Translations under genes and position numbers: made by a program
The notes under the pieces: generated by a model
The model's input: only the letters and a program-made list of their open reading frames with translations
Told to the model about the DNA's origin: nothing
The model's database searches: none
In this document: positions 1,798-24,550 of the stretch, one piece after another
How the letters are laid out: every line of letters begins with the position of its first letter
Position numbering within the stretch: the stretch's first letter is position 1
Assembly: GCA_902783005.1 (NCBI GenBank)
Contig: CACZPI010000084.1
Coordinates: 1 to 42,535 of the forward strand
Origin: an uncultured Ruminococcus sp.
Lineage (GTDB): Bacteria; Bacillota; Clostridia; Oscillospirales; Ruminococcaceae
Length of the DNA: 42,535 nt
Direction: 5' to 3'

Positions 1798-2901
1798 TCA
1801 CGTTTCCGACAGCAAGCCTGCCGCCGCCGCTTCCTCCCGCAGCAGCGCATTTGCCTGCTCTATTGTTCCGAAGTGTTCCCGGCAGCAGATGACGCGCCGG
1901 CAGGTGTGCATGGTTTCCCTTGCCTGCCGCAGGGCAGCTTCCCCGATCGGCTCGAATGCTTCTGCCGCGATCACGCTGCCTGCAAGAGCGGCGGCAGCGG
2001 GGTAGTCAATGTCGTTCTTTGGCAGAATGCCGGCTGCAAACGGGATCCCCTGCCGCCAGAGCCGCCGGTAGACAGGAATGCCGCTGCCGCCCCCGCCGAT
2101 GACGAATACCTCCGGCCTGCCGCGCACGGGCTCCGGTTCTGCGACGCCGTAAAGCGCATGATAGCTCCCCGCAGGCAGGTCATACAGCCGTTCGATATAC
2201 CCGCCGTCAAAGATTTCCTCGGGGGTACCGATGCGCTCGGCTGTTCCGCTGCGGATGCACAGGATCCGGTCGGAAAAGCGCTGTGCGAGATCCAGCTCAT
2301 GCAAGGACTGCACCACGGCGATCTGCTTTTCCCGCACAAGCGCCCGCAGGAGCGTCAGCAGCCGCAGCTTGTGGCGAATATCCAGAAACGAGGTCGGCTC
2401 GTCCAGCACCAGCACAGCCGGTTCCTGCGCAATGGCACGCGCAAGCATCACGCATTGCCGCTGTCCGTCGCTGATCCGCCGGAAATCCTGCTCCCGCAGC
2501 GCAGTCACACCGGCCAGCGCCATGGCTTCCTCCACAATGCGGTGATCCTCTTTGGACAGGATCCCAAGTCTCCCTGTATAGGGATAGCGCCCGGTCTCCA
2601 CGACCTCTTCACATGTCATGCGTTCTGTGCGGATGCGTTCGGTGAGCAGCACGGACATCTGCCGGGCGATTTCCGGTTCCGACAGCGCTGCAAGGCGCGA
2701 CTGCCCCAGAAATACACTTCCGGACACGGCAGGAAGCTGCGCGGCGATCGTCCGCAGAACGGTAGATTTTCCGGCACCGTTTGCCCCGATCAGCGTGAGG
2801 ATCTCACCGCCGCGAATTTCAAAGCTCACGCCGCTGACAATGACCGATCTGCCGTAGCCCGCCGAAAGCGCTCTTGCAGAAAGCACGGATTCTCCGTTCA
2901 T
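1798..2901 (-). CDS. ABC transporter ATPase (FecE/BtuD type) with a C-terminal extension
   Basis: A 367-residue cytoplasmic ATPase. Walker A is GANGAGKST near residue 38, the signature loop is ISDGQ (a variant of LSGGQ) near residue 143, Walker B is VLVLDEPTS near residue 163, and the switch His is in SLHELDLA. The ATPase core ends near residue 250. About 105 residues follow with a Rossmann-like start (VFVIGGGGSG) and conserved-looking IPFAAGILPKNDIDYP and EAFEPIG stretches, which ordinary FecE/BtuD proteins lack. The gene is the last of the riboswitch-led unit. It starts 1 nt after the permease stop, with AAAGGAG just upstream. By context it energises uptake of a corrinoid, cobalt complex or other tetrapyrrole. 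The role of the extension is unknown. Confidence 0.88.
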   Translation of the reverse strand: MNGESVLSARALSAGYGRSVIVSGVSFEIRGGEILTLIGANGAGKSTVLRTIAAQLPAVSGSVFLGQSRLAALSEPEIARQMSVLLTERIRTERMTCEEVVETGRYPYTGRLGILSKEDHRIVEEAMALAGVTALREQDFRRISDGQRQCVMLARAIAQEPAVLVLDEPTSFLDIRHKLRLLTLLRALVREKQIAVVQSLHELDLAQRFSDRILCIRSGTAERIGTPEEIFDGGYIERLYDLPAGSYHALYGVAEPEPVRGRPEVFVIGGGGSGIPVYRRLWRQGIPFAAGILPKNDIDYPAAAALAGSVIAAEAFEPIGEAALRQARETMHTCRRVICCREHFGTIEQANALLREEAAAAGLLSET

Positions 2902-2902
2902 G

Positions 2903-3925
2903 TCACATGCTCCTTTCCCGTTCGCGCCGGATCAGGATCCACAGGACGACCGGTGCGCCGAATACTGCCGTTACCGTGCTGACGCTCAGCTCGAGCGGCG
3001 AAAACAGCATCCGTGCCAGCAGGTCACATCCCATGCAGAATGCCGCCCCGCACAGGAAGGAAGCGGGGATCATGATGATCGGCTTTGCGGTTCCGAACAG
3101 TCCCTTCACCAGATGCGGCACGGCCACGCCGACGAAGGACACCGGCCCTGCAAATGCCGTGACACATGCCGACAGCAGGCTTGACAGCAAAATCAGGAGA
3201 AGCCGGAATACCCGCAGATTCACGCCGAGGTTCTCGGCATAGCTCTCCCCGAGCTGATAGGCAGACAGCGGCTTGGACAGCAGGAATGCCGCTGCGGTGC
3301 CGGTCAGAACGATCACGGTGATCACCCCGATGTCCTCGCGGGCGGTTCCGGAAAAGCTGCCCATTGACCAGTTATGAAGATTGACGATATTTGCATCGTC
3401 TGCAAAGGTGACTGCCAGCTCCGTGACCGCCGAGCAGACATAGCCGATCATGACGCCGCTGATAATGAGCTGTGCCATATTCCGGATCCTGCCGGAGATC
3501 AGCAGAATGATCCCCATGGAAGCCAGGGAACCGGCGAAGGACGCCGCGACCAGTGACCCGGCATGCAGCGCGATGCCGCTTTGCAGGGAGGCGATCATGG
3601 CCAGTGCCACGGTCAGCTTTGCGCCCGAGGAAATCCCCAGCACGAAGGGCCCCGCGATCGGATTGGCAAAGAAGGTCTGCAAAAGAAATCCCGCCACCGA
3701 CAGCGCACCGCCCAGCAGCAGCGCCGCCGCCGCACGCGGGAGCCGGATGTCCAGCAGAATGCGCCGTGCAGCTTCGTCCGCAGACTGCCCCGTCAGCACC
3801 TCCCGGACAGTCTCGATAGAAATGCTGCTGCTGCCCGTGACCGTTTCCAGAAGAAAAAATACGGCGCACAGCACCCCGAGCAGGAGAAATCCGCCAAACC
3901 TTCGCAGCATTCGTTTCTGATCCAT
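2903..3925 (-). CDS. FecCD/BtuC-family ABC permease
   Basis: A 340-residue, very hydrophobic protein with about nine or ten membrane segments and typical FecCD landmarks: RLPRAAAALLLGGALSVAG near the first third, then NPIAGPFVLGISSGA, GPVSFVGVAVPHLVKGLFG and a C-terminal GAPVVLWIL. Full length for the family. Only one permease gene is present, so the channel is probably a homodimer as in BtuCD or HmuUV. The ATG at 3925 has GGGGGAG upstream and lies 13 bp after the binding-protein stop. Together with the flanking genes it forms a complete ABC importer. Family members carry vitamin B12, heme and ferric siderophores, and the riboswitch upstream favours a corrinoid or cobalt-related ligand. Confidence 0.9.
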   Translation of the reverse strand: MDQKRMLRRFGGFLLLGVLCAVFFLLETVTGSSSISIETVREVLTGQSADEAARRILLDIRLPRAAAALLLGGALSVAGFLLQTFFANPIAGPFVLGISSGAKLTVALAMIASLQSGIALHAGSLVAASFAGSLASMGIILLISGRIRNMAQLIISGVMIGYVCSAVTELAVTFADDANIVNLHNWSMGSFSGTAREDIGVITVIVLTGTAAAFLLSKPLSAYQLGESYAENLGVNLRVFRLLLILLSSLLSACVTAFAGPVSFVGVAVPHLVKGLFGTAKPIIMIPASFLCGAAFCMGCDLLARMLFSPLELSVSTVTAVFGAPVVLWILIRRERERSM

Positions 3926-3938
3926 AGCATTCTCCCCC

Positions 3939-5078
3939 TTAACGCAGACGGTGCAGGAAGGTCAGCGCATCGGCATCCTCTGCCTGTCCGTTGAAGATGC
4001 AGTTGAGATCGGCGATCATTTCCGCCGCGCCGGTGGTCTGCTGAAATAGATTTTGTCCCGTACACCAGACATGATCCTCTTTGACGGCGCGAAAATCGGC
4101 AAAAATGCTGCTTTTGGAAAGTAACGCATCCAGATCATCCAGATCCCCTTCAATGGTGCTGTTGTAAATGAGGTAATCGGCATCCCGCGCCGCATCGTAA
4201 AAGGCTTCCATCTGAATATTCATGGTGGACAGGGCATTTTCCTCCACGGAAAGGTCTTCTGCCGTAAAGCAGTAGCGCCCGCCGGCCAGTGCGATCATCT
4301 GCGAGACATAATCGCCGGGCTTGCGGATGGTGACCGATCCGTTGGAATTGACGGAAAAGAATGCCGCAGTCGGGCGCTCCTCCTCCGGAATGTCCGGGAT
4401 CTCCAGCGTTTCAAAGCGGCTTGTCCTTTCGGCAAATGTGGCCTGTGCCTCCGCTTCTCTTCCAAGGAGCAGGCCGTAGAGCTTCATCCATTCCATCCGT
4501 CCGAGCGGGTGCGATTCATAGCTTGAACGCTCGGTAAGTACGGGAATGCCGAGCGTTTCGATTTTCTCGCGCACCTCCGGGCTGTGGTAGATCATTGTGG
4601 ATTCCACCGCCAGACCGCATCCGGATGCCGTAAGCTGTTCGTAATCCGGCGCACTGTATTTCCCGATATAGGACATCTGTCCGGATGCAAGCGCTTCCTG
4701 AACGGCAGGCAGCGCCCAGCTCTCCGGTGCGGTCGAGGTCATTTCCACCGCATCCAGACCGCCGGCTGCATCAAACAGATCCATTGCCGAGGATGCCGCC
4801 ACATACAGATGCGTCAACGGCTGCTGCAAAACGGTCATTTCCTCCGCACCGTCAGGGATCGCCGCATCCTCCGGAACCAGCAGGAAGGTGTCCTCCGTTC
4901 CGATCCGGATGACGGCATACCCGCCCTCGCAGTAATCCACGGAAAACTGCGACGCATAGGAAAGCTCCATATGTCCCGTCACCGCCGGCAGCGCACCGGA
5001 TGCCGGCTCCGGTGCGGCCGCACAGCCTGTCATGCCAAGCAGGAGCGCAGCGGTGACGATTCCGGTGATCCTGCGCAT
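3939..5078 (-). CDS. Substrate-binding lipoprotein of the ABC importer (BtuF/FecB type)
   Basis: The chosen ATG at 5078 gives a 379-residue protein beginning MRRITGIVTAALLLG, with a lipobox ending in Cys (GMTGC), so it is a membrane-anchored lipoprotein. The start lies 1 nt after the upstream stop. A longer in-frame start at 5135 would bury the signal peptide and is unlikely. The body resembles class III periplasmic-binding proteins: an early TDxF-like beta region, AVEMTSTAPESW, a long helix around MEWMKLYGLLLGREAEA, and a second lobe with GDYVSQMIALAGG and a DYLIYNST strand. It sits between the permease and the NEAT-like lipoprotein and should deliver ligand to the permease. Which tetrapyrrole it binds cannot be read from sequence. 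Confidence 0.82.
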   Translation of the reverse strand: MRRITGIVTAALLLGMTGCAAAPEPASGALPAVTGHMELSYASQFSVDYCEGGYAVIRIGTEDTFLLVPEDAAIPDGAEEMTVLQQPLTHLYVAASSAMDLFDAAGGLDAVEMTSTAPESWALPAVQEALASGQMSYIGKYSAPDYEQLTASGCGLAVESTMIYHSPEVREKIETLGIPVLTERSSYESHPLGRMEWMKLYGLLLGREAEAQATFAERTSRFETLEIPDIPEEERPTAAFFSVNSNGSVTIRKPGDYVSQMIALAGGRYCFTAEDLSVEENALSTMNIQMEAFYDAARDADYLIYNSTIEGDLDDLDALLSKSSIFADFRAVKEDHVWCTGQNLFQQTTGAAEMIADLNCIFNGQAEDADALTFLHRLR

Positions 5079-5079
5079 A

Positions 5080-5979
5080 TCAGCCGGCTGCCCGGATCGA
5101 CGCAGGATCGAAATACAGGGTATATTCGATCTCATACGGCACGCTCATTGCAGTAGTATCGGCGCTCACGGGCATCCGGTAGCCGAATCCTGTCACCGGG
5201 ATCTCAAATACGGAATGTCCGTCGATGATCTCGGGCAGGTATTTCTCCCCGCCAACCAGCATGTAATCGTACTTGTCACTGCTCCAGATGATCTGTGCAA
5301 ATGCGCTGCCGTCTGCAACCGTCAGCGCGGCAGGGGACTGCACACTGGCCTTGCCGGAGCCGCCCTCCAGCGTGACGCTGACTGTATATGCACCGTCTGC
5401 CAGCCCGAGATCCTCCACGCTTTGGTACTGCTGCACGGCAAATGCCTCTGCCGGGAGCGAATCTGCCCGGAATACCAGCGTTCTGCCATACCATTCCTGC
5501 TTCTTTTTGCTCAGGGCAGCGCAGATGATCTCCTTGTCGAGCGCTTCGACCGGAAGCGTGAACCAGCGCTCGCCGTCTGCCTCCTCAAAGGGAATGCGCT
5601 CTTCTTCGGAAGCTGCCGCTGCTTCCTGCTCCGTGCCGAGGAACATGGCATCGTAGCTGGTGCTGCCGGTATTGATGCGGGCGGTCATGGCGCCGTCCGC
5701 CACGGTCAGCTCGCATGCCGTGACCTTGAACATGGAGGAGCTGGAATCCACCTGAATGGAATAGCTCCCGTCATGCAGCGCATCGGCAAAGACCGGCTCC
5801 ATGCCCTCAAATCCGACCTCCTCCTGCGGGGCAGTCTCATGTGTGGTTTCCGCGGCGGCGGTTTCGGCAGGAACGGCGGCTTCCGTGGGAACAGTGGTTT
5901 CCGCCGGGGCAGCGGGCGCTGCCGTGCAGCCGGTCAGGAAGAGAAATGCCAGAAGCGTGATCCGGAGTTTTGCTTTCAT
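5080..5979 (-). CDS. Lipoprotein with two NEAT-like domains
   Basis: A 299-residue protein with a lipoprotein signal (lipobox FLTGC) followed by a Thr/Ala/Glu-rich spacer of about 35 residues. Two related beta-rich domains follow, at roughly residues 65-170 and 190-295. Both share DG-x-Y near the start, LTVADG in the middle, a YD-x-M segment, an F-x-(I/L)-PV strand and a terminal L-x-F strand. The second has Tyr-Glu-Ile-Glu-Tyr, a YxxxY pattern like the heme-binding strand of NEAT domains; the first has only WYGR there. NEAT homology is inferred from this pattern. Three ATGs are in tandem at 5985, 5982 and 5979; GAGGTGA at 5986-5992 is best spaced for 5979. It probably captures a tetrapyrrole outside the cell. 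Confidence 0.7.
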   Translation of the reverse strand: MKAKLRITLLAFLFLTGCTAAPAAPAETTVPTEAAVPAETAAAETTHETAPQEEVGFEGMEPVFADALHDGSYSIQVDSSSSMFKVTACELTVADGAMTARINTGSTSYDAMFLGTEQEAAAASEEERIPFEEADGERWFTLPVEALDKEIICAALSKKKQEWYGRTLVFRADSLPAEAFAVQQYQSVEDLGLADGAYTVSVTLEGGSGKASVQSPAALTVADGSAFAQIIWSSDKYDYMLVGGEKYLPEIIDGHSVFEIPVTGFGYRMPVSADTTAMSVPYEIEYTLYFDPASIRAAG

Positions 5980-6001
5980 CATCATTCACCTCATATAGGG
6001 A

Positions 6002-6027
6002 GATCGGGCAGACAATGCCGCCCGATC
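6002..6027 (-). other. Intercistronic hairpin between cbiK and the NEAT-like gene
   Basis: GATCGGGC (6002-6009) and GCCCGATC (6020-6027) form a perfect 8-bp stem with a 10-nt loop. No T-run follows on either strand, so it is not a standard terminator. It may affect mRNA processing or the relative level of the two lipoproteins. Confidence 0.5.
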
Positions 6028-6040
6028 CGTATTTTGTGTG

Positions 6041-7087
6041 TTATTCTGCAAGGGAGTCGATCGCAGCCTGTGCGTGCTCGGTGTAGAGCTGACGGATGTC
6101 CTCATTCTCGCCAAGACCGCGCAGGAGGCATGTTACCTCGTAGCCGGCATTCTCAAAGACCGACTTCCAGGAATCCTCCTCATCGCCTGCCATGTCATTG
6201 TTGGCATGATCGCCGGCAACGACCATCAGCGGTTCAAGAATGACACGCTCATAGTCACCTGCCTGTACAGCAGCCAGTACATCGTCAACGGAAGGCGATG
6301 CCTCTACGGTGCCGACGAAATAGTTCTCATAGCCGTCGGCCGTCAGAAGATCCTGCATCTGCTGGTACACGGCATTGGAATCCGCCTCGGTGCCGTGACC
6401 CATGAAGCAGATGGCGGTCTTGCCGTCGTCATATTCTGCCGTCCAGTCCACAATGGCCTGCTCCACGCGCTTGAAATCGTCATCGCTCGTGAGCAGCGGC
6501 TCACCGAATACGACCTGATCGAATGCATCGGCATAGCCGCCGACCTGTGCCACCAGGTCATTGTATTCCAGACCGTGCATCAGGTGTGTCGGCTGTACGA
6601 CAAGCGTCTTGACGCCGTTATCCATCGCACGCTCCAGTGCGGCATCCACATCGTCGATCAGGAAGCCGTCACGGCGGTTCACATGGTCAATGATGATATT
6701 GGCCGTGAAGCCGCGGCGCACGGAAAAGTCCGGGAATGCTTCTTCCAGCGAATTTTCGATCGCGCCGATGGTCAGGCGGCGGCTGTCATTGAAGCTCGTG
6801 CCGAAGCTGAGCACCAGCAGCTCCTTGTCACCGATGTCATCCTGGTTGCGGATGTTGTCGAGGGAGGCATCACCGGTGTCGTAATTCTCCTCGTCCTCTT
6901 CCTCCTCGGCTTCCTCCTCCGTAGGGGCATCGGTCTCCGCCTCAGTGGGCGCTTCCGTTACAGCCTCGGTAGCAGCTTCGGTGGCAGCCGGCTCTGTGGA
7001 AACAGAGGACGTATTCCCGCTGCCGCAGGCAGTCATTGCCGCAGCCGCAACAGTCAGGCTCAGAAGAAGTGCAGTCATTCTTTTCAT
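6041..7087 (-). CDS. cbiK: CbiK-type (cobalto)chelatase carried as a surface lipoprotein
   Basis: A 348-residue protein. Residues 1-20 form a signal peptide with lipobox MTAC, then an acidic Thr/Glu linker to about residue 75, then a complete CbiK fold starting ELLVLSFGTSF. The two metal-site histidines of the CbiK family are present as His231 in GHGTE and His294 in AGDHANNDM, spaced as in the Salmonella enzyme (His145 and His207). The family inserts Co(II) into sirohydrochlorin. A lipid-anchored form must act outside the membrane, as the periplasmic CbiK of Desulfovibrio does, so its true substrate may be a scavenged tetrapyrrole. ATG 7087 is preceded by AAAGGA. It is the first gene after the cobalamin riboswitch and is followed by the NEAT-like and ABC genes. 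Confidence 0.88.
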   Translation of the reverse strand: MKRMTALLLSLTVAAAAMTACGSGNTSSVSTEPAATEAATEAVTEAPTEAETDAPTEEEAEEEEDEENYDTGDASLDNIRNQDDIGDKELLVLSFGTSFNDSRRLTIGAIENSLEEAFPDFSVRRGFTANIIIDHVNRRDGFLIDDVDAALERAMDNGVKTLVVQPTHLMHGLEYNDLVAQVGGYADAFDQVVFGEPLLTSDDDFKRVEQAIVDWTAEYDDGKTAICFMGHGTEADSNAVYQQMQDLLTADGYENYFVGTVEASPSVDDVLAAVQAGDYERVILEPLMVVAGDHANNDMAGDEEDSWKSVFENAGYEVTCLLRGLGENEDIRQLYTEHAQAAIDSLAE

Positions 7088-7135
7088 GTCAAACCAATCC
7101 TTTCGCAATTGAAGGGTATAGGTCGTCATAGATGC

Positions 7136-7163
7136 AAAAAAACCTCCTGCATGGGGCAGAAGG
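7136..7163 (-). terminator. Intrinsic terminator of the riboswitch leader
   Basis: On the minus strand CCTTCTGC pairs with GCAGGAGG around a CCCAT loop and is followed by seven T residues. It ends 48 bp before the cbiK start. A GGCATT/AATGCC hairpin just upstream overlaps the stem base by two nucleotides and could compete with it. It is probably the expression platform of the riboswitch, stopping transcription when ligand is bound. Confidence 0.8.
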
Positions 7164-7258
7164 CATTGCAAACAGACCCTGCCGGAATGCCGGAGAGTCC
7201 CATACAGTACGATCAATACCTCGTGATCTGAATCCCGCAAAAGGGGGATTCTGTACCA

Positions 7259-7467
7259 GCAAAAACGGCAGGTTTCCTGACTCAGGGATCCATGCGGTAT
7301 GGCAGCCTTCCCGATTGCTCAGTGACGCCGCGCGGGGAATCGCTCCCTTGCGGATGGCATACCGCTCCTCCATTACAGTGACGAGATCGTGCAGGATTTT
7401 CACCTGCTTCCCTTTTACCCTCCGGCCTGACCGCGGATCATCCGCCGCCATCGGAGGCACCGTCTGC
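7259..7467 (-). promoter_or_regulatory. Cobalamin (AdoCbl-type) riboswitch
   Basis: Read on the minus strand, the leader carries the cobalamin-riboswitch core: TAAAAGGGAAGCAGGTGAAAATCC (7397-7420), the CACTGTAA element near 7372-7380, a long variable arm with GGTATGCC/GGCATACC-type pairing, and the 3' GTCAGGAAACCTGCC box at 7266-7280. A closing helix can form between the minus-strand ACGG near 7460 and CCGT near 7267. It is followed by the leader terminator at 7136-7163 and preceded by a sigma-A promoter at 7500-7528. It should switch off cbiK and the downstream transport genes when cobalamin is plentiful. Confidence 0.93.
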
Positions 7468-7499
7468 TTATTCAGTTGTGATGTTCATGAACATCTCAT

Positions 7500-7528: not shown

Positions 7529-7572
7529 GCGATCCACGAAAAATAGCTTTTTTTGACAAATCCTCTGCACTT

Positions 7573-8211
7573 TCACCCCTGTTTTTTGCCGTCCGCCATA
7601 TACAGCAGCGCATTGCATACCGCAGCGGCCACATTGCTGCCGCCCTTGCGTCCCATGGCGGCAATGCAGGGGATCCCGGATGCGGTCAGGAGCTCCTTGG
7701 ACTGCACCACATTCACAAATCCCACCGGCATGCCGATGACAAGCGCCGGCCGGAAGATGCCTGCTGCATGAAGCTCACAGATCCGGATGAGCGCCGTCGG
7801 GGCATTCCCGACCGCATAGATCACGGGGCGGCCAAGCGCTGCGGCCTTGTCCACACTTGCAGCCGCACGGGTGGTGCTGTTTGCCTTTGCGGCAGCGGCA
7901 ATGTCGGGATCCGCCATGAAGCAGACGGCCTCACATCCATGCCGGGCAAGCGCCGCCTTATTGATCCCGGCAAGTGCCATATTGGTGTCGGTGACAAACA
8001 GCACGCCGGAGCGGATGCAGTCAAGCGCGATCTGTACGGCACCCGGGGAAAACCGGAGATTGTCCGCATAGTCAAAATCTGCTGTCGTATGGATCGCCCG
8101 CATGACGACCGGCCGGATCTCCTCCGGAATGTCCCGTCCGCCAAGCTCCTGCGCAATGATCGCGAAGCTGCGCTGTTCGATCTCGGACGGCAGTACATAT
8201 TCGAGCTTCAT
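7573..8211 (-). CDS. cbiC: Cobalt-precorrin-8 methylmutase
   Basis: A 212-residue protein, full length for CbiC/CobH, which moves the methyl group from C-11 to C-12 to give cobyrinate. Visible family motifs are the N-terminal PSEIEQRSFAII, the catalytic-His region RAIHTTADFDY near residue 50, VFVTDTNMALAGIN, VYAVGNAPTALI and the glycine-rich GMPVGFVNVVQSKE. ATG 8211 overlaps the cbiP stop as ATGA, with GGAGGGA upstream. It is the last gene of the biosynthesis operon; no terminator separates it from the cbiK promoter. Confidence 0.95.
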   Translation of the reverse strand: MKLEYVLPSEIEQRSFAIIAQELGGRDIPEEIRPVVMRAIHTTADFDYADNLRFSPGAVQIALDCIRSGVLFVTDTNMALAGINKAALARHGCEAVCFMADPDIAAAAKANSTTRAAASVDKAAALGRPVIYAVGNAPTALIRICELHAAGIFRPALVIGMPVGFVNVVQSKELLTASGIPCIAAMGRKGGSNVAAAVCNALLYMADGKKQG

Positions 8212-9677
8212 AGTCCCTCCTCCAGAATCCTGTAGATCAGCTGCATATCCATGCTCTCCCGCACGGCATCCGCCAGCAGATCGAACTGCATGTCCCGGTA
8301 GGCCTGCCGGCTGACGGCAGGACTGCTGCACGAGATCCCTTTGCGTGCAGCCAGCGCCCGCACCAGCGCACCGGAGACCTCTGCACGGTCGAAGATGCCG
8401 TGAATGTAGCACCCCGCCGCATCCCCGGCAATGCTCCCGCCCCGGTCGGTCAGCGGCATTCCGGGATCCTCCGTGCGTCCCATGTGGATCTCATATCCCT
8501 CAAAGGGCGCCCCGGAGAGACAGCCGAAAAAGCCGGACAGCGCGGAAAAATGCCCCTGTGTCCGTCTTTGCTGCTTTTCTGAGCCGAATACGGTTTTTCC
8601 ACGCAGCAGGCCAAGCCCCTGTGCCGAGCCGCCGCCCTCGCAGCCGAGGGGATCGGAAACGGATTCCCCCATGAGCTGATACCCGCCGCAGATGCCAAAG
8701 ACCGGAATGCCCTGTGCAGCGCAGGCACATACGCCATCCGCCATGCCGGTTTTCCGCATCCATTGCAGATCCGCAATGGTGCTTTTGGTGCCGGGCAGGA
8801 TCAGCAGATCGGGCTTTCCAAGCAGCTCCGGGCGCGTGACATAGCGGACGGACACCCCGTCATACTGCGAAAATACGTCGAAATCCGTGAAATTCGAGAT
8901 CTTTGGCAGCCGGATCACCGCAATGTCCACGCCCCTGCCCGGCATCTGTTGTTCCAGCTTTCCGGACAGGCTGTCCTCGTCCTCAAGATCACAGGTAATG
9001 AAGGGAATCACGCCCGCCACGGGCTTTCGGCTGCGCTCCTCCAGGATTTCCACGCCGTCTTGGAACAATGCCCTGTCTCCGCGGAACTGATTCACAATCA
9101 GCCCTTTGACCATGTCCCTTTCTGCCGGCTCCAGAAGGCCGAGTGTGCCCAGGAGCTGCGCGAAAATGCCCCCGCAGTCAATGTCCCCGACGAGCAGCAC
9201 CGGAGAACGGACAAGCGCGGCAAGCCCCATGTTCACAATGTCATCCGCCTTGAGATTGAGCTCCACAGGGCTTCCGGCGCCCTCGATCACCACAATATCG
9301 TACTGTGCGGCAAGCGTCCGGTAGGCTTCCAGGATCTCCGGGATCAGCTCTGTCTTGTGCCGGAAATAATCCCGCGCCCGCATATTCCCGAGCACCCTGC
9401 CGCTGACTATGACCTGGGAGCCGGTGTCAGTCGTGGGCTTGAGCAGGATCGGATTCATGAGCGCAGACGGCTCGATCCCTGCCGCCTGTGCCTGCATGGC
9501 CTGTGCGCGGCCGATCTCCAGCCCGTCGGCAGTAACATAGGAATTGAGCGCCATATTCTGCGATTTGAACGGCGCACAGGAATAGCCGTCCTGCCGGAAG
9601 ATCCGGCAGAGTGCAGCGGTCAGAAAGCTCTTGCCGACATTGGACATAGTGCCCTGCAGCATGATCGTCTTTGCCAT
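8208..9677 (-). CDS. cbiP: Cobyric acid synthase (glutamine-hydrolysing amidase)
   Basis: A 489-residue cytosolic enzyme that amidates adenosylcobyrinate a,c-diamide at four side chains using glutamine and ATP. The N-terminal dethiobiotin-synthetase-like ATPase domain begins KTIMLQGTMSNVGKS. The C-terminal class I amidotransferase domain has the nucleophile Cys in FGICGGYQLMG, and EIHMGRTE and GCYIHGIFD around its histidines. The ATG at 9677 forms TAATG with the preceding stop and has GGAGGTGC at correct spacing. The in-frame GTG at 9686 overlaps that Shine-Dalgarno site and is rejected. Coupled to cobD upstream and cbiC downstream. Confidence 0.95.
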   Translation of the reverse strand: MAKTIMLQGTMSNVGKSFLTAALCRIFRQDGYSCAPFKSQNMALNSYVTADGLEIGRAQAMQAQAAGIEPSALMNPILLKPTTDTGSQVIVSGRVLGNMRARDYFRHKTELIPEILEAYRTLAAQYDIVVIEGAGSPVELNLKADDIVNMGLAALVRSPVLLVGDIDCGGIFAQLLGTLGLLEPAERDMVKGLIVNQFRGDRALFQDGVEILEERSRKPVAGVIPFITCDLEDEDSLSGKLEQQMPGRGVDIAVIRLPKISNFTDFDVFSQYDGVSVRYVTRPELLGKPDLLILPGTKSTIADLQWMRKTGMADGVCACAAQGIPVFGICGGYQLMGESVSDPLGCEGGGSAQGLGLLRGKTVFGSEKQQRRTQGHFSALSGFFGCLSGAPFEGYEIHMGRTEDPGMPLTDRGGSIAGDAAGCYIHGIFDRAEVSGALVRALAARKGISCSSPAVSRQAYRDMQFDLLADAVRESMDMQLIYRILEEGL

Positions 9678-10705
9678 TACAAGCACCTCCCAAGCGCGGC
9701 AAGCAGCCGCAGATTTTCGTCATGTGTCCGCACGGCGATGCGGAAGAATCCCGCACTGAGCCCGCGGAAATTCGAACAGTCCCGGATGAGGATCCCCGCC
9801 TGCTGCATCCGCCCGGCAAGCCCGGGGTCGCATTTCAGAAGCAGGAAATTGGCATCCGACGGGAATACCCGCACGCCCGCATCCCGGAGCGCACTTTCCA
9901 GGAATGCACGTTCGTGCCGGATGTATGCGATGCTTTCCCGCACATAGTCCGTCTGTGCAAGTGCACAGATCCCGGCTGCCTGTGCCGGTGCAGAAACGCT
10001 CCAGTACTGGCCGCTTTGGCGGATCTTGTCTGCCGTTTCCGTGCTGCCGCAGACTGCATAGCCGAGCCTGAGTCCGGGCATGGCAAAGAGCTTTGTGAAT
10101 GCCTTGAGTATGACCGCGTGCTCCCGCAGATACGGCCGCAGGCTGCATGCCGGTGACTGTCCGGCAAGCGTGAGGAAGCATTCGTCACAGACAAGGAAAA
10201 TGCCGTTTTCCGCGCAGCGCTGTGCAATGCTTTGCAGCAGTCCGGGGGAGATACACAGGCCGCTGGGATTGTTCGGGGTACACAAAATGAGCATATCGGT
10301 GTCCCCGGTCAGCAGCGGCAGAATGCTGCCGGTCAGCCGGAATTCGTCCGCCTCCTCCAGCGGATGCTCCCGGACGGTGCATCCGCATTCATGCAGCGCT
10401 GCGGCATATTCCCCGAATGCCGGCACGCAGAGCAATGCCCTGCGCGGCCGGAAGGCGTGTGCGATCCGGTAGATCAGATCCGCCGCGCCATTCCCGCAGA
10501 CGATCCGTCCGGGCACGGTCTGTTCTGCGAGGGCGAGCTTTTCCGTCAGTGCCGTGCAGTCCGGATCGGGGTAATGCGCCCAGTCCGCCGATGCTGCCAG
10601 CACCGCCTCGCGGATTCGCGGGGGCATTCCAAGGGGATTGAGATTTGCGGAGAAATCCAGCATATTCCGATGCAGGAACAGATTCCCGCCGTGTTCTTCT
10701 GTCAT
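9677..10705 (-). CDS. cobD: L-threonine-O-3-phosphate decarboxylase (PLP enzyme)
   Basis: A 342-residue class I/II aminotransferase-fold protein. It begins MTEEHGGNLF and has FSANLNPLG, CGNGAADLIYRIAHA, ILCTPNNPSGL, VCDECF and the PLP lysine region LKAFTKLFAMPGLRLGY. The HGGN start and FSANLNP motif are typical of CobD rather than histidinol-phosphate aminotransferase. The product, (R)-1-amino-2-propanol phosphate, is the linker of the nucleotide loop used by CbiB, whose gene is directly upstream. ATG 10705 overlaps the cbiB stop as ATGA. An earlier in-frame start at 10765 lies inside cbiB and would add an unconserved extension. Confidence 0.93.
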   Translation of the reverse strand: MTEEHGGNLFLHRNMLDFSANLNPLGMPPRIREAVLAASADWAHYPDPDCTALTEKLALAEQTVPGRIVCGNGAADLIYRIAHAFRPRRALLCVPAFGEYAAALHECGCTVREHPLEEADEFRLTGSILPLLTGDTDMLILCTPNNPSGLCISPGLLQSIAQRCAENGIFLVCDECFLTLAGQSPACSLRPYLREHAVILKAFTKLFAMPGLRLGYAVCGSTETADKIRQSGQYWSVSAPAQAAGICALAQTDYVRESIAYIRHERAFLESALRDAGVRVFPSDANFLLLKCDPGLAGRMQQAGILIRDCSNFRGLSAGFFRIAVRTHDENLRLLAALGRCL

Positions 10706-11667
10706 ACGATCACACCTATCAGCAGTATTCGCACACATGCGCACAGAAGCAGCATCATGCCGCATGCCGCATACATCAGCCGGTTTGCCCGGCGGATGTC
10801 CTCCGGCTCGATCGGGCGGTCATCGTCCCCGATGTAGGGCTTGTGATGCACCTGACCGAAATATTGTGCATCTCCCGCAAGCCGCAGATGCAGCGCCCCG
10901 GCGCAGGCAGATTCCGTCTGTGCGGAATTCGGGCTTGCATGGCGCCTTCTGTCACGCCGCCAGATGTGCCATGCCTGCCGGGCATCAAAACCAAGAAAGG
11001 GACATGCCGCAATCATCAAAAGCGCCGTCATTCGCGATGGCAGGTAATTGAGCACATCATCCAGCCTTGCCGCAAATCTGCCGATCTCGGCGTATTTTTC
11101 GTTCTGGTAGCCGATCATGGAATCCATGGTATTGGCCGCCTTGTAGAAGAATCCGCCGACCGCCCCGCCGAATGCCATATAGAACAGCGGTGCCGTCACG
11201 CCGTCCGAGGTATTCTCCGCCACGGTTTCTACAGCAGCACGGAGAATGCCGGCGCGGTCGAGCACCGCCGTATCCCGGCCGACGATCATGGAAACCGCTT
11301 TTCTCGCCCCCTCGGTGTCACCGGATTCGGCGGCGCGGCAGACCTTCATGCTTTCATCCCGCAGGCAGCGGGCGGCGAGCATGTAGCAGCAGAGAATGCT
11401 CTCGGCAAGCACCCCCAGCAGAATATGCACCCGGTAGCACAGCAGCAATGCGGCTGCCGGGAGCAGCGTGGAAACCCCCAGAACGGTCATTGCCAGCAGC
11501 ACCCCGCCAAGGCGCAGATTCCGGCATTTCCGGCGGACAAGCGCCTCCAGTTCCGCGATCAGCTTTCCGACGGCGCGGATCGGATGGGGAAAGCTGTAGG
11601 GATCACCGATGATACAGTCAAGTACAAAGCCCAGCAAAAGCGGCAGGGCAGGCAGCAGCAGTTTCAT
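10702..11667 (-). CDS. cbiB: Adenosylcobinamide-phosphate synthase
   Basis: A 321-residue integral membrane protein with about five hydrophobic segments, full length for CbiB/CobD. Family landmarks are LGFVLDCIIGDPYSFPHPIRAVGKLI at the start, ETVAENTSDGVTAPLFY in the middle and NTMDSMIGYQNEKY, where acidic residues bind metal. It joins aminopropanol phosphate to adenosylcobyric acid. ATG 11667 overlaps the stop of cobC as ATGA, and its own stop overlaps cobD the same way, so linker synthesis and attachment are translationally coupled. Confidence 0.94.
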   Translation of the reverse strand: MKLLLPALPLLLGFVLDCIIGDPYSFPHPIRAVGKLIAELEALVRRKCRNLRLGGVLLAMTVLGVSTLLPAAALLLCYRVHILLGVLAESILCCYMLAARCLRDESMKVCRAAESGDTEGARKAVSMIVGRDTAVLDRAGILRAAVETVAENTSDGVTAPLFYMAFGGAVGGFFYKAANTMDSMIGYQNEKYAEIGRFAARLDDVLNYLPSRMTALLMIAACPFLGFDARQAWHIWRRDRRRHASPNSAQTESACAGALHLRLAGDAQYFGQVHHKPYIGDDDRPIEPEDIRRANRLMYAACGMMLLLCACVRILLIGVIV

Positions 11668-12224
11668 AATGCCTCCGGATCCATAAGATGTGTGCCGTTC
11701 CAGGTACAGCGCCAGCCGTGGCCGTTTTCCGTCATCCGGTCATAATAGCCGCGGTGCGGAAGGGCAAGGGCTTCCAGGATCGACATGACAGTACCGCCGT
11801 GAACGACCAGGGCAAGAGAGGGACATTCCGGATGTGCGGCGGTCACATCCCGGAAGGCGCCGACACAACGCGCCCGGAATGCAGCAGGGGATTCTCCTTC
11901 CGGAAACGGGAGCATTCCGCCGCTGTCGATCCATTCCTGATAAGCCCGGTTCCCTGCAAGCTCCCGGTAGTTTTTCCCCTCGAACCGTCCGAAATCGCAT
12001 TCGCGAAGATCCTCGCAGACCGTGTACGGCTGCCCCGGAAATAAAATCGCTGCGGTTTCGGTGCATCGCCGCATCGGGCTGCATACCAGGGCGCTGCACA
12101 CCGGGTAATGCAGGCTGCCAAGTGCCCGGATCCCGGCTTCGCACAGGGGCTCATCCGTCCTGCCGATGTAGCGCTTTTCAAGATTGCCCGCCGTCATGCC
12201 GTGGCGGATCAGATACACGGTCAT
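11664..12224 (-). CDS. cobC: Alpha-ribazole-5'-phosphate phosphatase (histidine phosphatase family)
   Basis: A 186-residue protein with the histidine-phosphatase signature LIRHGMTAGN near residue 6 (phospho-His), SPMRRCTETA, EDLRECDFGRFEGKNYREL and the second catalytic His in LVVHGGTVMSIL. In this operon context the substrate is most likely alpha-ribazole phosphate or adenosylcobalamin 5'-phosphate, the last step of the nucleotide-loop pathway. The true start is ATG 12224, overlapping the stop of the short cobU-like gene as ATGA. A plain phosphoglycerate-mutase-like role is possible but less likely here. Confidence 0.88.
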   Translation of the reverse strand: MTVYLIRHGMTAGNLEKRYIGRTDEPLCEAGIRALGSLHYPVCSALVCSPMRRCTETAAILFPGQPYTVCEDLRECDFGRFEGKNYRELAGNRAYQEWIDSGGMLPFPEGESPAAFRARCVGAFRDVTAAHPECPSLALVVHGGTVMSILEALALPHRGYYDRMTENGHGWRCTWNGTHLMDPEAL

Positions 12225-12613
12225 GGCAGCTCCCCCTTGATCGCAGCCGGAATGCCGCACACCATCCGGATGACCGTTTCTGCACGGGCAGCCAGAATGC
12301 AGCCGCAGCGCCCGGTCTGCTCCCGCAGGATCCGGTCATTCTTTTCAAGCGGGACAATGCCGCAGCCGATCTCATCGAGGAGAATGACGGCATCGGAATT
12401 TTCTGTACACAGGCGCTCTGTGAATGCGACGGGATCCCTTCCGTCAGCAAGCAGGCGGCGCACCAGCGCATGATACGCGGTAATGCACCGCGCCGAAAGC
12501 GCTGCCTCCGGAGCACAGAGACCACCGTCTGTCAGCTCCGCTTCTGAAAATTGAAATGTATGCAGGGCATACTCTGTCTTGCCCTGTCCGCGTCCGCCGG
12601 TAATCAGAATCAT
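12221..12613 (-). CDS. Short CobU-like P-loop protein
   Basis: A 130-residue protein, shorter than the usual 170-190 of CobU. It begins MILITGGRGQGKTEYA, with a P-loop at GGRGQGKT, and keeps the C-terminal half of the family: AVILLDEIGCGIVPLEKNDRI, the counterpart of the SNEVGxGIVP motif, and AETVIRMVCGIPAAIKG. It lacks the central segment carrying the guanylylated histidine. The full-length cobU lies two genes upstream and is diverged in just the motif this protein keeps. It could be a kinase-only enzyme, a partner subunit or a degenerating paralogue. ATG 12613 overlaps the cobS stop as ATGA. Confidence 0.75.
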   Translation of the reverse strand: MILITGGRGQGKTEYALHTFQFSEAELTDGGLCAPEAALSARCITAYHALVRRLLADGRDPVAFTERLCTENSDAVILLDEIGCGIVPLEKNDRILREQTGRCGCILAARAETVIRMVCGIPAAIKGELP

Positions 12614-13380
12614 AAAAGCACCTCCGTCACATGCTGCACCAGTACCGCCGCTGCAAGACATCCGATCTCACAGAGCTGCAGGAACCAGCCGCACAGATCC
12701 CCGGTCACCCCGCCGAAATCGCGCCGGGCGGTATGCCGGTAATACAGGAACACAAGCCCCGCCGCCGCAAGCGCAGCGATCCCGGCAGCAGGGGAGAGCA
12801 GGAGCATGCCGGTGCCGGCGAGCATGAGAAATGCGGCTTCCATTCCGACAGTCACGCGCCGGTGTGCGGGTCTGACAAAGCTCTGCAGCGTGCCGTCCTT
12901 CTTGGCAGCGGGGAATGTCACGGCAGACAGCCCGCTCAGCGCCCGGGAAATGACAAAGCTGCATCCGGTCAGAGCGGCCATGCGCAGGGAATGGATCCCG
13001 GTCATCAGCGCCGTCTGTGCAATGAGATACAGGCACAGATGCAGGACGGCAAAGGAGCCGATATGCGGGTCGGACAGGATCTCCAGGCGCCTTGCCTTCT
13101 CCGCATAGGCGCTCCTGGCATCCGTGACATCGCAGAATCCGTCGAGATGGATGCCGCCCGTCACCAGCACCGGGAGCAGCACGGCGCCTGCCGCAAACAG
13201 CAGCGGCGGGAGCAGAATCCGGTCTGCCAGCAGGTACCATAGCACGAGCAGCATGCCCTGCACTGCGCCGACCAGCGGGAAGAAGCCGAGGGCATACCGG
13301 CGGTTTTCTTCCTTCCATTCCACATGCGGCATGGGAATGCGGGAATACATCAGAAACGCGCAGATCAGTGATTTCAGCAT
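12610..13380 (-). CDS. cobS: Adenosylcobinamide-GDP ribazoletransferase (cobalamin synthase)
   Basis: A 256-residue membrane protein with about six hydrophobic segments, full length for CobS. The metal-binding motif GGIHLDGFCDVTDA near residue 65 matches the family GGxHxDGxxD pattern, and FFPLVGAVQG and DFGGVTGDLCG flank the active site. It condenses adenosylcobinamide-GDP with alpha-ribazole or its phosphate at the membrane. ATG 13380 overlaps the cobU stop by 7 nt and has AAAGGA upstream. It sits between the two CobU-like genes, which supply GDP-cobinamide. Confidence 0.94.
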   Translation of the reverse strand: MLKSLICAFLMYSRIPMPHVEWKEENRRYALGFFPLVGAVQGMLLVLWYLLADRILLPPLLFAAGAVLLPVLVTGGIHLDGFCDVTDARSAYAEKARRLEILSDPHIGSFAVLHLCLYLIAQTALMTGIHSLRMAALTGCSFVISRALSGLSAVTFPAAKKDGTLQSFVRPAHRRVTVGMEAAFLMLAGTGMLLLSPAAGIAALAAAGLVFLYYRHTARRDFGGVTGDLCGWFLQLCEIGCLAAAVLVQHVTEVLL

Positions 13381-13895
13381 GGCAGATGTCCTTTCAGAAT
13401 GACCGGGATGCCGCAGACGCATTCTACAGCGCAGTCAGCGGCAGCAGCAAGGCGGGCATTGACTGTGCCCAGAATGCGGATATATTCCATAGTTTCCGGA
13501 GCATAGGAAATGCCGTCACTCCCGACCTGATTGGTCACGATGACAAGCAGCGCTGTACGGGCGGAAAGACTGCGCATATCCCGCACGATCGTTTCCGCAG
13601 GATCGCAGATGCCTTCGGGACGGAACATTTCGTTCGCGCACAGATTCCCCATGCATTCGAGCAGCACGCCGCATCCGTCCGGCAGCACCAGACCGCCGAT
13701 GTCCGTGTATCGTTCGATCGTCTCAAATCCCCTGCCTTCGCGCATTTTTCGATGCCGTGCAATGGCTTCACGCGCATCCTCCCCGTAGGGCTGCATGGTG
13801 GCAATATAGTATTTATCCCCGGAAAAGCCCTCCAGGATCCGCTCGGCGAGGCTGGATTTCCCGCATTTGGAGCCGCCGATAATCAGAATCATCAT
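13374..13895 (-). CDS. cobU: Adenosylcobinamide kinase / guanylyltransferase
   Basis: A 173-residue protein with P-loop GGSKCGKSS near residue 7, the IATMQPYGEDAR region and a HRKMREGRGFETIE stretch holding the guanylylated His, then a VLLECMGNLCANEMF segment. The C-terminal motif is changed: the usual SNEVGxGIVP is TNQVGSDGISY. It phosphorylates adenosylcobinamide and transfers GMP from GTP. The start can be ATG 13895 (overlapping the cobT stop as ATGA) or 13892; the first is taken because of the overlap pattern throughout this operon. A second, shorter CobU-like gene lies downstream of cobS. Confidence 0.88.
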   Translation of the reverse strand: MMILIIGGSKCGKSSLAERILEGFSGDKYYIATMQPYGEDAREAIARHRKMREGRGFETIERYTDIGGLVLPDGCGVLLECMGNLCANEMFRPEGICDPAETIVRDMRSLSARTALLVIVTNQVGSDGISYAPETMEYIRILGTVNARLAAAADCAVECVCGIPVILKGHLPC

Positions 13896-14941
13896 TGCTG
13901 TTGTGTGTACCTTTCAATAGAAGTGTCCTCGAACCGGTGTGCATTCCGGTACAGGGCAAGCGTGCTGTCGAGCAGCGGCACCAGCAGCAGTCCGCCCGTG
14001 CCTTCTCCGAGCCGCAGCCCCGCATGAATGACAGGCTCGAGCCCGATCATCCGGAGAAGCCCCTGTCCTGCCGGTTCTCCGGAGCAATGACTTGCCAGCA
14101 GATAGTCCCGGCACAGCGGCGCGATCCGGCAGGCGATGGCCGCGGCCGCCGCCGAAATGACGCCGTCGATCACCACCGGGATCCGATAGACTGCACCGCC
14201 GAGGAACAGCCCTGTCATGCCCGCGATTTCAAATCCTCCGAGCTTTTGCAGCAGCCCGACAGGATCGGCCGGATCCGGCTGATTGACGGCGATGGCGCGT
14301 TCAATGGCGGCGATCTTCCGGGTGAGTCCCTCCGAGGAAAGCCCTGCCCCGCGTCCGGTGACCTCCCGGACAGGCAGCCCGAGCAGCACCGCCGCAAGGG
14401 CGCTTGCTGCCGTGGTATTCCCGATGCCCATTTCACCGGTCAGCAAAAGCTGCATTCCCTGTTCCTTCTGCATGCGCACAAGCTCCATCCCGGTCACAAT
14501 GGCCGCCTCTGCCTGCTCCCTTGTCATGGCAGCACCGCGGGTCATGTCCCGGGTGCCGCTGCCGATCCTTCGATTGAGCAGACGGTCGCATTCCGGGGCG
14601 GTGACCATGCCCAGATCCGCCGCGATCACTTGTGTCCGGCAGCTTTCTGCAATGGCATTGACATTGGAGTGCCCCTGTGCAATGGCGCAGGCGCATTCTG
14701 CCGTGACCTCGCTGCCGCATTGGGTCACGCCCTGTGCGACCACACCGTGATCGGCGCAAAGGACGATCACGGCACGCCTGTCAATGCACACCGATTCCGT
14801 TCCCTGCACGGCAGCAATCCGCTGTACAGCCTCCTCAAGCAGCCCGAAGCTGCCAAGGGGCTTGGCAATGCTGTCCCACCGTGCTTTTGCAAGGGCGTAA
14901 GCGGTTTTATCCGCAGGTCTGATCTGTCTGATGCGTTCCAT
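13892..14941 (-). CDS. cobT: Nicotinate-nucleotide--dimethylbenzimidazole phosphoribosyltransferase
   Basis: A 349-residue cytosolic enzyme, full length for CobT. It activates the lower-ligand base by making alpha-ribazole phosphate from nicotinate mononucleotide. Motifs are SIAKPLGSFGLLE near residue 20, VLCADHGVVAQGVT, GEMGIGNTTAASAL and the catalytic glutamate in LRLGEGTGGLLLVPLL near residue 315. ATG 14941 has GGAGGGA directly upstream and overlaps the end of cbiA by 35 nt. Other in-frame starts farther upstream would only translate cbiA sequence out of frame. Which benzimidazole or other base is used cannot be told from sequence. Confidence 0.94.
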   Translation of the reverse strand: MERIRQIRPADKTAYALAKARWDSIAKPLGSFGLLEEAVQRIAAVQGTESVCIDRRAVIVLCADHGVVAQGVTQCGSEVTAECACAIAQGHSNVNAIAESCRTQVIAADLGMVTAPECDRLLNRRIGSGTRDMTRGAAMTREQAEAAIVTGMELVRMQKEQGMQLLLTGEMGIGNTTAASALAAVLLGLPVREVTGRGAGLSSEGLTRKIAAIERAIAVNQPDPADPVGLLQKLGGFEIAGMTGLFLGGAVYRIPVVIDGVISAAAAAIACRIAPLCRDYLLASHCSGEPAGQGLLRMIGLEPVIHAGLRLGEGTGGLLLVPLLDSTLALYRNAHRFEDTSIERYTQQQ

Positions 14942-16262
14942 GGCTCCCTCCGTATGCGGCACATGCCTGCACAAAGCGTTCTGCGATCCGGGGATCTGCG
15001 TAGAAGTAGAGATGCGGGAATCCCGCATACATCGTCCTGCTGACATGCCCGCACGGCCAATGCCTGCCGTCCGGCTTGACGGCCTCCAATGCATGTCCGG
15101 GATTGGGCACATCCCAGTAATGAAATTCATGTGCGCGGATCTGCCCGCCCTTTGGAAAGAGCAGACTGTCCTCCCGCGCTGTCATGGTGATGTAGCCGAA
15201 GCGTCCGAGGCGGCCGGCAGAGGAGGCTTCTCCGGGGAAAATGCCTGCCATCGGAAAGGATTCCCCTTGCTCTGTCCGGATGGAATCATGCAGATAGAGA
15301 AAGCCTCCGCATTCCGCGATCACCGGCATTCCGGCGAGAATGCGCTCCCGGATCTGCATGCGCATGGCAGCATTTCCGGAGAGTGCCTGTGCATACAGCT
15401 CCGGATAGCCGCCGCAGAGAATCAGCCCGTCGGAAGCAGGGAGCGCAGGATCCGTGAGCGGCGAGAAATACCGCAGCGTACAGCCCATTTCCTCGAGCAT
15501 TTCGAGATTCTCAGCGTAGTGAAAGCAGAATGCCCTGTCCTTTGCCACCGCGATCACCGGCGGACGGGACAGCTTTGGCAGGGAAGGGGGCTCCCCGGGC
15601 AGATCCGGCGCCTGCAATGCAAGGAGCCTGTCAATGCAGATATGCTCCTGTGCCAGCGTCCCGAGGGCATCGAGCCTTTCACGCAGATCCCGGATCTCCT
15701 CTGCCGTGACAAGCCCGAGGTGCCGGCTCCCGAATGTCAGGTCATGCGGCGGGAGACATCCGAAATAGCCCGTCCTCATTTCCTCACAAAGCCGCTTTGC
15801 CGCCGGGATCAGCCGGAGGGGAAGACGGTTGAAGAGAAAGCCCGCGATCCGGCTGTCACTTTGATAATGCAGGAATCCATGCATGACAGCACCGATGGAT
15901 TCCTGCATGCCCTTGCAGTCGATCACGAGAACGGCAGGGGTCTGCGTGATCTGTGCGACATGCCGGGCGGAGCCGTCCGCACCGTCAAAATACCCCATCA
16001 CGCCCTCGATCACAGCGGTATCGCATCCCGCAGAGCGCGTATGCAGCAGATCGCAGAGCGTGGCGGGCTTGCAGAAGAATCCGTCTAAATTATGCGCCGG
16101 AATGCCGGTCACCTGTCTGTGGAACATGGGGTCGATATAATCCGGCCCGCATTTGAAGGCCGAGACCTTCCGCCCCCGCATCTGCAATGCCGAGAGAATG
16201 GCGCAGGTCATCGTGGTCTTGCCGCATCCGCTCCCGGTGCCGGCGATCAGAAACCGATTCAT
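14907..16262 (-). CDS. cbiA: Cobyrinate a,c-diamide synthase
   Basis: A 451-residue two-domain amidase: an N-terminal ATPase beginning MNRFLIAGTGSGCGKTT and a C-terminal glutamine amidotransferase with the nucleophile Cys in PVIAECGGFLYLHDSI and a late His in AHEFHYWDV. It amidates the a and c side chains of cobyrinate, the first amidations of the pathway. ATG 16262 has GGAGGCTG upstream and overlaps the cbiET stop as ATGA. The C-terminus overlaps cobT by 35 nt, the longest overlap in the operon, and the last dozen residues may be poorly conserved. Confidence 0.94.
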   Translation of the reverse strand: MNRFLIAGTGSGCGKTTMTCAILSALQMRGRKVSAFKCGPDYIDPMFHRQVTGIPAHNLDGFFCKPATLCDLLHTRSAGCDTAVIEGVMGYFDGADGSARHVAQITQTPAVLVIDCKGMQESIGAVMHGFLHYQSDSRIAGFLFNRLPLRLIPAAKRLCEEMRTGYFGCLPPHDLTFGSRHLGLVTAEEIRDLRERLDALGTLAQEHICIDRLLALQAPDLPGEPPSLPKLSRPPVIAVAKDRAFCFHYAENLEMLEEMGCTLRYFSPLTDPALPASDGLILCGGYPELYAQALSGNAAMRMQIRERILAGMPVIAECGGFLYLHDSIRTEQGESFPMAGIFPGEASSAGRLGRFGYITMTAREDSLLFPKGGQIRAHEFHYWDVPNPGHALEAVKPDGRHWPCGHVSRTMYAGFPHLYFYADPRIAERFVQACAAYGGSHGTHQTDQTCG

Positions 16263-20690: not shown

Positions 20691-20691
20691 A

Positions 20692-21822: not shown

Positions 21823-21829
21823 GTCTTCC

Positions 21830-24524: not shown

Positions 24525-24550
24525 AATTCCGCCTCAGAAAGGTCATAAAA

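Follow-up and report, generated by a model that had tools for sequence, protein, structure and literature searches.

Why would a bacterium export a chelatase of the CbiK family, an enzyme family that inserts cobalt into a precursor of vitamin B12, and place its gene together with those of a surface protein and an importer behind a cobalamin riboswitch? The question is raised by a five-gene module on contig CACZPI010000084.1 of an uncultured Ruminococcus sp. (assembly GCA_902783005.1), of which positions 1 to 42,535, the whole stretch of DNA that was analysed, are called the window here. The module lies on the minus strand and reads, 5' to 3', riboswitch, hairpin, CbiK, NEAT-like protein, binding protein, permease and ATPase; all of the parts named in a preliminary description of this DNA (three lipoprotein genes, a permease, an ATPase and a cobalamin riboswitch) were present. 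We hold it to be an even bet that the module is a B12-repressible surface system that captures an early precursor of the B12 ring, inserts cobalt into it on the outer side of the membrane and takes up the resulting cobalt ring. We infer import because ring-building genes are kept in genomes without the ring start, because the importer is B12-controlled and because the first gene encodes a member of a precursor-cobalt-inserting enzyme family. The features concerned are as follows.

7573..21897, minus strand: cbi/cob operon, running in the same direction as the riboswitch and immediately upstream of it (CbiD, CbiF, CbiG, CbiH, CbiJ, CbiE/T, CbiA, CobT, CobS, CobC, CbiB, CobD, CbiP, CbiC)
7250..7477, minus strand: cobalamin riboswitch aptamer (RF00174, 85.3 bits, gathering score 31.5, full model 1-189)
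7142..7164, minus strand: terminator-like hairpin of 9 pairs with a T run, lying after the aptamer and ahead of the first gene
6041..7087, minus strand: exported CbiK-family chelatase, a lipoprotein of 348 amino acids (lipobox MTAC; Pfam CbiK 265.5 bits)
5990..6040, minus strand: strong hairpin between the CbiK and NEAT-like genes (-19.1 kcal/mol, z -3.70, without T run)
5080..5985, minus strand: lipoprotein of 301 amino acids with two NEAT-like beta domains, at about residues 60-180 and 190-298 (Pfam NEAT matches at family level, weak PDB profile hits, conserved motifs)
3939..5078, minus strand: BtuF/FecB-type binding lipoprotein (lipobox MTGC; Pfam Peripla_BP_2 91.3 bits)
2903..3925, minus strand: FecCD/BtuC-type permease (Pfam FecCD 259.7 bits)
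1798..2901, minus strand: BtuD-type ATPase (Pfam ABC_tran), with a C-terminal extension of about 90 residues

The RF00174 match at 7477-7250 was the sole cobalamin riboswitch found in the genome of the window. The hairpin at 7164-7142 folded with a z-score of -1.67 by itself, and the 131-nucleotide leader with one of -2.97; judging from the sequence, this hairpin is probably the expression platform of the riboswitch. Gaps between the genes of the module were 55, 1, 13 and 1 bases in gene order, and the hairpin in the first gap (5990-6040) possibly has a role in mRNA processing or dosage control. The open reading frame of the binding protein starts at 5135, and the start of its signal peptide is the ATG at 5078. 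The top NCBIfam model for the permease was BtuC (192.9 bits, under the equivalog cut-off of 334) and that for the ATPase was the corrinoid ATPase PRK09536 (residues 7-358, 226.1 bits, under the cut-off of 537); the C-terminal extension of the ATPase had no Pfam match when searched on its own. Just before the riboswitch lies cbiC, the last gene of the cbi/cob operon, in which CbiD, CbiF, CbiH, CbiJ, CbiET, CbiA, CobT, CbiP, CbiC and CobD were named by NCBIfam and CbiG, CobS, CobC and CbiB by eye only.

In the exported CbiK, an acidic linker precedes the CbiK domain. The protein scored 265.5 bits against Pfam CbiK (cut-off 26.2) and missed the equivalog cut-off of the NCBIfam sirohydrochlorin cobaltochelatase (230.2 vs 400 bits). 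It matched the solved structures 1qgo, FetB (9b86, second-best) and 2xvx, the last of which is presumably the periplasmic CbiK of Desulfovibrio vulgaris. Residues H231, H294 and E174 aligned to positions 145, 207 and 89 of 1qgo, which we take to be the metal histidines and the active-site glutamate, so that the claim of both metal histidines in the preliminary description holds. Both histidines were conserved in all 26 exported and all 32 cytosolic CbiKs, and the glutamate in all 26 exported copies and in 30 of the 32 cytosolic ones, exported copies being told from cytosolic ones by a lipobox pattern and a reading of the N-terminus (those of G006 and G145 were classed as exported from a hydrophobic N-terminal stretch only). 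In a tree of the 58 CbiKs, all 26 exported copies fell on one side of a branch with support of 99/90.

The two-domain lipoprotein was placed through its relatives. Searched alone, it gave nothing above cut-off in family searches, and its own two domains had no Pfam NEAT match even at a permissive limit of E 5. At that limit, more members of each domain alignment matched NEAT than any other family: 13 of 16 in the second-domain alignment (best E 2.5e-6) and 8 of 12 in that of the first domain (best E 6.9e-5). These matches among relatives lend sequence-level support to the earlier guess that the domains are NEAT-like, while the window copy itself is unmatched. A profile of the second domain gave six weak hits in the PDB at E 0.011 to 0.25, four of them to NEAT chains (3sik, 3sz6, 4h8q and 4h8p), and 3sik and 3sz6 are presumably NEAT domains of heme proteins. 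The whole-protein profile retrieved 4h8q and 4h8p at E 0.07-0.08, ranked after an unrelated lipoprotein, and the first-domain profile retrieved no NEAT chain from the PDB. At the site of YxxxY, which we take to be the NEAT heme motif, the second domain of the window copy has YEIEY; of the 80 named loci described below, 75 were caught by the pattern, and among these the first-tyrosine site of this domain was His in 54 loci and Tyr in 21. The same site in the first domain was Lys in 80 of 87 pattern matches (KxxxY). By eye, some relatives had their domains divided over two genes, some ended in a hydrophobic stretch and basic residues resembling a membrane anchor, and one had four domains.

Conservation of the module was examined in 197 genomes of the window's family and in a set of named loci (the best 80 of 462 relatives); the sets overlap, as at least six named loci (L136, L140, L182, L187, L199 and L202) are contigs of the family genomes. 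The two-domain protein had a match in 27 of the 197 genomes and lay next to a CbiK gene in 22, which are called module genomes here; the five not counted were G002, in which the match was a relative with one domain only (54.7 bits), and four genomes with weak matches (18.8-22.1 bits). All five genes stood in the window order in 17 of the 22. G171 had this order with a fused ATPase, G005, G111 and G181 were rearranged, and G035 had CbiK, NEAT-like and binding-protein genes with no permease or ATPase within the 16 kb examined. A cobalamin riboswitch lay upstream on the same strand in 22 of 22, at 296-623 bases from the CbiK match in 21 genomes and ahead of the whole cluster in G005; it was the sole cobalamin riboswitch found in 13 of the 22, no more than 70 of the first-look candidates having been scored for most genomes. 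Among the named loci, CbiK immediately preceded the NEAT-like gene in 79 of 80, the exception being cut at a contig end, the five genes stood in order in 65, and the riboswitch was present in all 7 isolate loci tested. Named carriers include Ruminococcus flavefaciens FD-1 and 007c and Agathobaculum butyriciproducens. The preliminary description had asked whether the five-gene order recurs in other genomes, and it does. Chance co-location of the genes is ruled out by the conserved order.

Two fusions were found in carriers. In G171 (100% complete), the module ATPase and CbiD (cobalt-precorrin-5B methyltransferase) share one stop-free frame of 651 residues (L044, 3604-6495), which lacks a methionine where CbiD would be expected to start. 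A single stop-free stretch of 683 codons on the plus strand of L167 (Lachnospiraceae bacterium YSB2008) holds both NEAT-like domains and the binding protein. The module also seems to move between genomes as one unit: a 6.5-kb block that starts shortly ahead of the riboswitch and stops shortly past the ATPase was 98.5% identical between G012 and G038 (L051, 2738-9267; L052, 4406-10936), two draft genomes assigned to different genera, and the flanks were unlike. A phage-type integrase gene lies about 0.6 kb downstream of the block in G038. A variant set consisting of a permease, an ATPase, a lipoprotein CbiK and a binding protein of about 490 amino acids occurs in L107 (G067, 5509-9959) and L125 (G185, 6318-10581), and no NEAT-like gene was seen in either.

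The gene content of the 22 module genomes was compared to that of 42 other genomes with CbiD (64 in all; G167, with CbiD below cut-off, was excluded from 65 hits). CbiD was kept in 22 of 22 module genomes. A cytosolic CbiK or CbiX was found in 1 of the 22 vs 34 of the 42 others (p 1.9e-9). CbiM was found in 1 vs 22 (p 9.5e-5), hits of 19-39 bits, which among module genomes occurred in G035, G061, G080, G126 and G130, not being counted. HemC, which no tetrapyrrole pathway can do without, was present in 6 vs 25 (p 0.019) and CbiL, counted from 130 bits and so taking in G035 (158.5, under cut-off) and the partial G130 (135), in 12 vs 37 (p 0.0046). With one genome per genus and class, p was 1e-6 for the chelatase, 3.4e-4 for CbiM, 0.077 for HemC and 0.029 for CbiL. 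Of the early tetrapyrrole genes, the analysis covered HemC and, through a count of hits, SUMT. Neither HemC nor CbiL was present in eight module genomes that are 96-100% complete, and each of these had only four tetrapyrrole-methylase hits, which we read as CbiF, CbiH, CbiE and the rRNA enzyme RsmI; a SUMT-like hit lay beside HemC in 5 of the 6 HemC-bearing module genomes.

Several results weigh against precursor import, and shared ancestry is foremost among them. On a CbiD tree, a single clade of 14 rows took in 12 of the 22 module genomes, so the gene-content comparisons are not independent. A paired test that allows for ancestry had just 6 independent contrasts, with which no gene-loss association can reach 0.05. 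The mean number of contrasts with vs against the module was 2.9 vs 0.0 for absence of the cytosolic chelatase, 2.3 vs 0.2 for absence of CbiM, 0.9 vs 0.4 for absence of HemC and 0.4 vs 1.9, the wrong direction, for absence of CbiL. This leaves replacement of the cytosolic chelatase as the most robust signal and makes CbiL loss a clade trait. Given the clustering in one clade, the wrong-way result for CbiL and the neutral one for HemC, we treat the losses of these two genes as a description of the genomes and not, as at first, as something that independently marks the module.

Other objections come from single genomes and from the scope of the searches. The window's own genome has HemC, in what appears by eye to be a siroheme cluster near a sulfate transporter, and could thus make sirohydrochlorin itself. 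Five further module genomes have HemC (in G012, a fragment at a contig end only), and one module genome, G170, has CbiM. Conversely, HemC was also absent from 17 of the 42 CbiD genomes without the module, and G011, G026, G147 and G002 have neither HemC, CbiL, CbiM nor the module; such losses in genomes without it indicate that other routes exist. Most genomes were drafts, and the searches were confined to CbiK and CbiX among chelatases, to the exclusion of CobN-type and Met8-type enzymes, and to CbiM among cobalt importers. Two observations on the genomes without the module may be recorded here. In G011, G026 and G147, CbiD is present and CbiK is absent or broken. In G002 (L091, 5220-15211), a cytosolic CbiK lies between two BtuFCD-type sets, followed by an open reading frame of 1226 amino acids that is CobN-like by eye, with a cobalamin riboswitch upstream.

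The linkage of importers to CbiK was also examined outside the module. Of 35 CbiD genomes with a CbiK locus outside the module, 14 lacked HemC, and 8 of these had a BtuC-type permease no more than 4 kb from CbiK; of the 21 with HemC, none did (p 1.3e-4). A paired test gave the same direction in 2.7 of 4 pairs and the opposite direction never. Since the permease is near CbiK only in HemC-less genomes, an importer beside CbiK marks genomes unable to make their own tetrapyrrole, as expected if such importers supply CbiK with tetrapyrrole.

How might the module work if it does import a precursor? When B12 is scarce, the riboswitch, seen here together with a terminator, would let the operon be read. 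The NEAT-like lipoprotein, with its NEAT similarity and a (His/Tyr)xxxTyr motif at the NEAT heme site, would catch the tetrapyrrole at the surface, and the captured precursor would be sirohydrochlorin or an isobacteriochlorin of the factor-III type. The lipoprotein CbiK, in which the catalytic residues are intact, may then insert cobalt or exchange a metal. Family membership, gene order and the fusion of NEAT-like domains to the binding protein suggest that the latter passes the ring to the permease and ATPase, and the neighbouring operon and the ATPase-CbiD fusion suggest that cytosolic cbi enzymes complete it. Bacteria can release factors II and III; in genomes that are also without CbiL, the cargo would need to be C20-methylated already, that is, factor III. 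Capture, cobalt loading outside the cell and import would together explain why a cytosolic chelatase and CbiM are missing, why the ring enzymes are retained and why a fusion to CbiD occurs.

A broader form of this proposal, which we advance only tentatively and consider doubtful as a whole, is that the site of cobalt insertion has shifted to the cell exterior and that different species share the work of corrin synthesis, with NEAT-type capture, an exported CbiK and import of cobalt rings. Donors would release metal-free isobacteriochlorins (sirohydrochlorin, factor III), and the importer would bring cobalt rings into cells that have no cytosolic CbiK or CbiX and no CbiM themselves; where CbiL is absent as well, the imported ring would be cobalt-factor III. 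No description of B12-precursor sharing as cobalt-factor III was found in the literature searched. The Iht locus of Porphyromonas gingivalis, described below, may do the same.

The main rival to precursor import is ordinary salvage of corrinoids, with B12, cobinamide or cobyrinate as the cargo and the exported CbiK as a non-catalytic corrinoid-binding lipoprotein. We judge it rather unlikely, although much of the evidence bears on it as well: the transporter belongs to BtuFCD-like families, with BtuC and a corrinoid ATPase as its top NCBIfam models, control by a B12 riboswitch is equally consistent with corrinoid uptake, and salvage too would explain the missing cytosolic chelatase and CbiM. 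It leaves unexplained, however, why CbiD is retained in 22 of 22 genomes and why ring methylases are kept in the eight genomes (96-100% complete) without HemC and CbiL. Moreover, the chelatase residues are invariant in 26 of 26 exported CbiKs, the fusion of the ATPase to CbiD would be odd for a finished corrinoid, and the NCBIfam cut-offs for BtuC and the corrinoid ATPase were missed. On the side of salvage, gut Bacteroides capture B12 with surface lipoproteins, according to the part of PMC6143338 available to us.

Uptake of heme or another iron porphyrin, in which CbiK would take out or swap the metal in the way suggested for FetB/IhtB, is improbable in our estimation; cobalamin riboswitch control in 22 of 22 genomes, the location beside cbi genes and the CbiD fusion all speak against it, as does the Lys at the heme-tyrosine site of the first NEAT-like domain, and to our knowledge heme cannot be converted into a corrin. 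NEAT domains are classical heme binders, and FetB (PDB 9b86) was the second-best solved match of the window CbiK. In the accessible part of PMC13402209, FetB is described as a porphyrin metal exchanger. We set heme uptake aside as the principal explanation on riboswitch control, operon context and the CbiD fusion. The earlier proposal of surface capture and import under B12 control fits all findings for a tetrapyrrole or corrinoid and is unlikely to hold for heme. Least probable of all, and by our estimate very unlikely, is that the lipoproteins collect cobalt on a small organic chelator for import into the cytosolic pathway. FecCD permeases often carry metal complexes, and a clear CbiM was not found in 21 of 22 module genomes; yet in 21 of 22 no cytosolic CbiK or CbiX was found to use free cobalt, and a tetrapyrrole chelatase would be an odd collector of it.

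How does precursor import by this module compare to known systems? No description of the five-gene set was found in the open-licence literature searched. The preliminary description, which knew of no system with exactly this set, needs one correction here: the Iht locus of P. gingivalis (IhtA-E, in which IhtB is FetB) comes close and is the nearest described system. As set out in the available part of PMC10913741, a surface lipoprotein resembling CbiK comes first there, the binding protein, permease and ATPase follow as they do in the module, and the system is believed to handle a tetrapyrrole beyond the inner membrane; that part also presents the locus as hardly characterised and IhtB as outside Fur control. 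Unlike the module, the Iht locus is assigned to heme or iron there and has a TonB receptor; no TonB-dependent receptor IhtA was seen by eye among the window's open reading frames around the module, in which a NEAT-like gene is inserted after the CbiK gene. We class the module as a set of chelatase and importer of the Iht kind, to which NEAT-type capture and control by B12 are joined.

Other systems share parts of the arrangement. Isd-type systems of Gram-positive bacteria are iron-regulated heme systems in which surface NEAT domains pass a tetrapyrrole to a binding protein and a FecCD-type importer, as the NEAT-like domains of the module may do; the module is set apart by a cobalamin riboswitch, a CbiK that is exported, anchoring through lipoproteins, and Lys or His where the heme-binding tyrosine would be. 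BtuFCD importers have the same transporter families and riboswitch type, whereas the module adds an exported chelatase and a NEAT-like protein and misses the NCBIfam equivalog cut-offs for BtuC and the corrinoid ATPase. Desulfovibrio vulgaris has a second, extracytoplasmic (periplasmic) CbiK besides its cytosolic one. Desulfovibrio resembles the module in placing cbiK-cbiL and btuCDF under one B12 element and in having no known cobalt transporter, according to the available part of PMC545781, but its periplasm is that of a Gram-negative and no NEAT-like partner is described. Salvagers of tetrapyrrole precursors keep corrin-ring genes and lack early tetrapyrrole genes, as the 16 of 22 module genomes in which HemC was not found may also do; in the part of PMC6461909 available, however, they are defined by gene content and tested with 5-aminolevulinic acid, and no importer is named for sirohydrochlorin-level precursors. 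The window's genome is unlike them in that HemC is present.

Beyond the module and the cbi/cob operon, the window encodes a protein that combines a Cache domain and a SpoIIE-type phosphatase domain, after which comes an ECF-like sigma factor (24329-28327), and a leucine-rich-repeat protein and a papain-type protease (28275-30482 and 34671-37013), both dockerin-bearing as in cellulosome-bearing ruminococci. Long secreted-type proteins lie on the plus strand at 31673-34684 and 37563-42533; the open frames of about 1000-1260 codons opposite them are probably codon-bias shadows.

A corrin pathway without the genes that start the tetrapyrrole is found in many bacteria, and was found long before in P. 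gingivalis, for which the puzzle of the missing route to precorrin-2 was reportedly raised in a 2000 paper. The steps to precorrin-2 are given as missing from this species in the available part of PMC6461909. How a precursor enters such cells is a standing question, for which the module is a concrete, testable candidate in a gut and rumen clade, and culture tests are feasible because the Ruminococcus flavefaciens isolates FD-1 and 007c carry it. If the proposal is true, a new class of traded compounds would be added to B12 ecology, a metal would be inserted into a cofactor precursor outside the cell, and NEAT-type capture would extend from heme to B12 chemistry.

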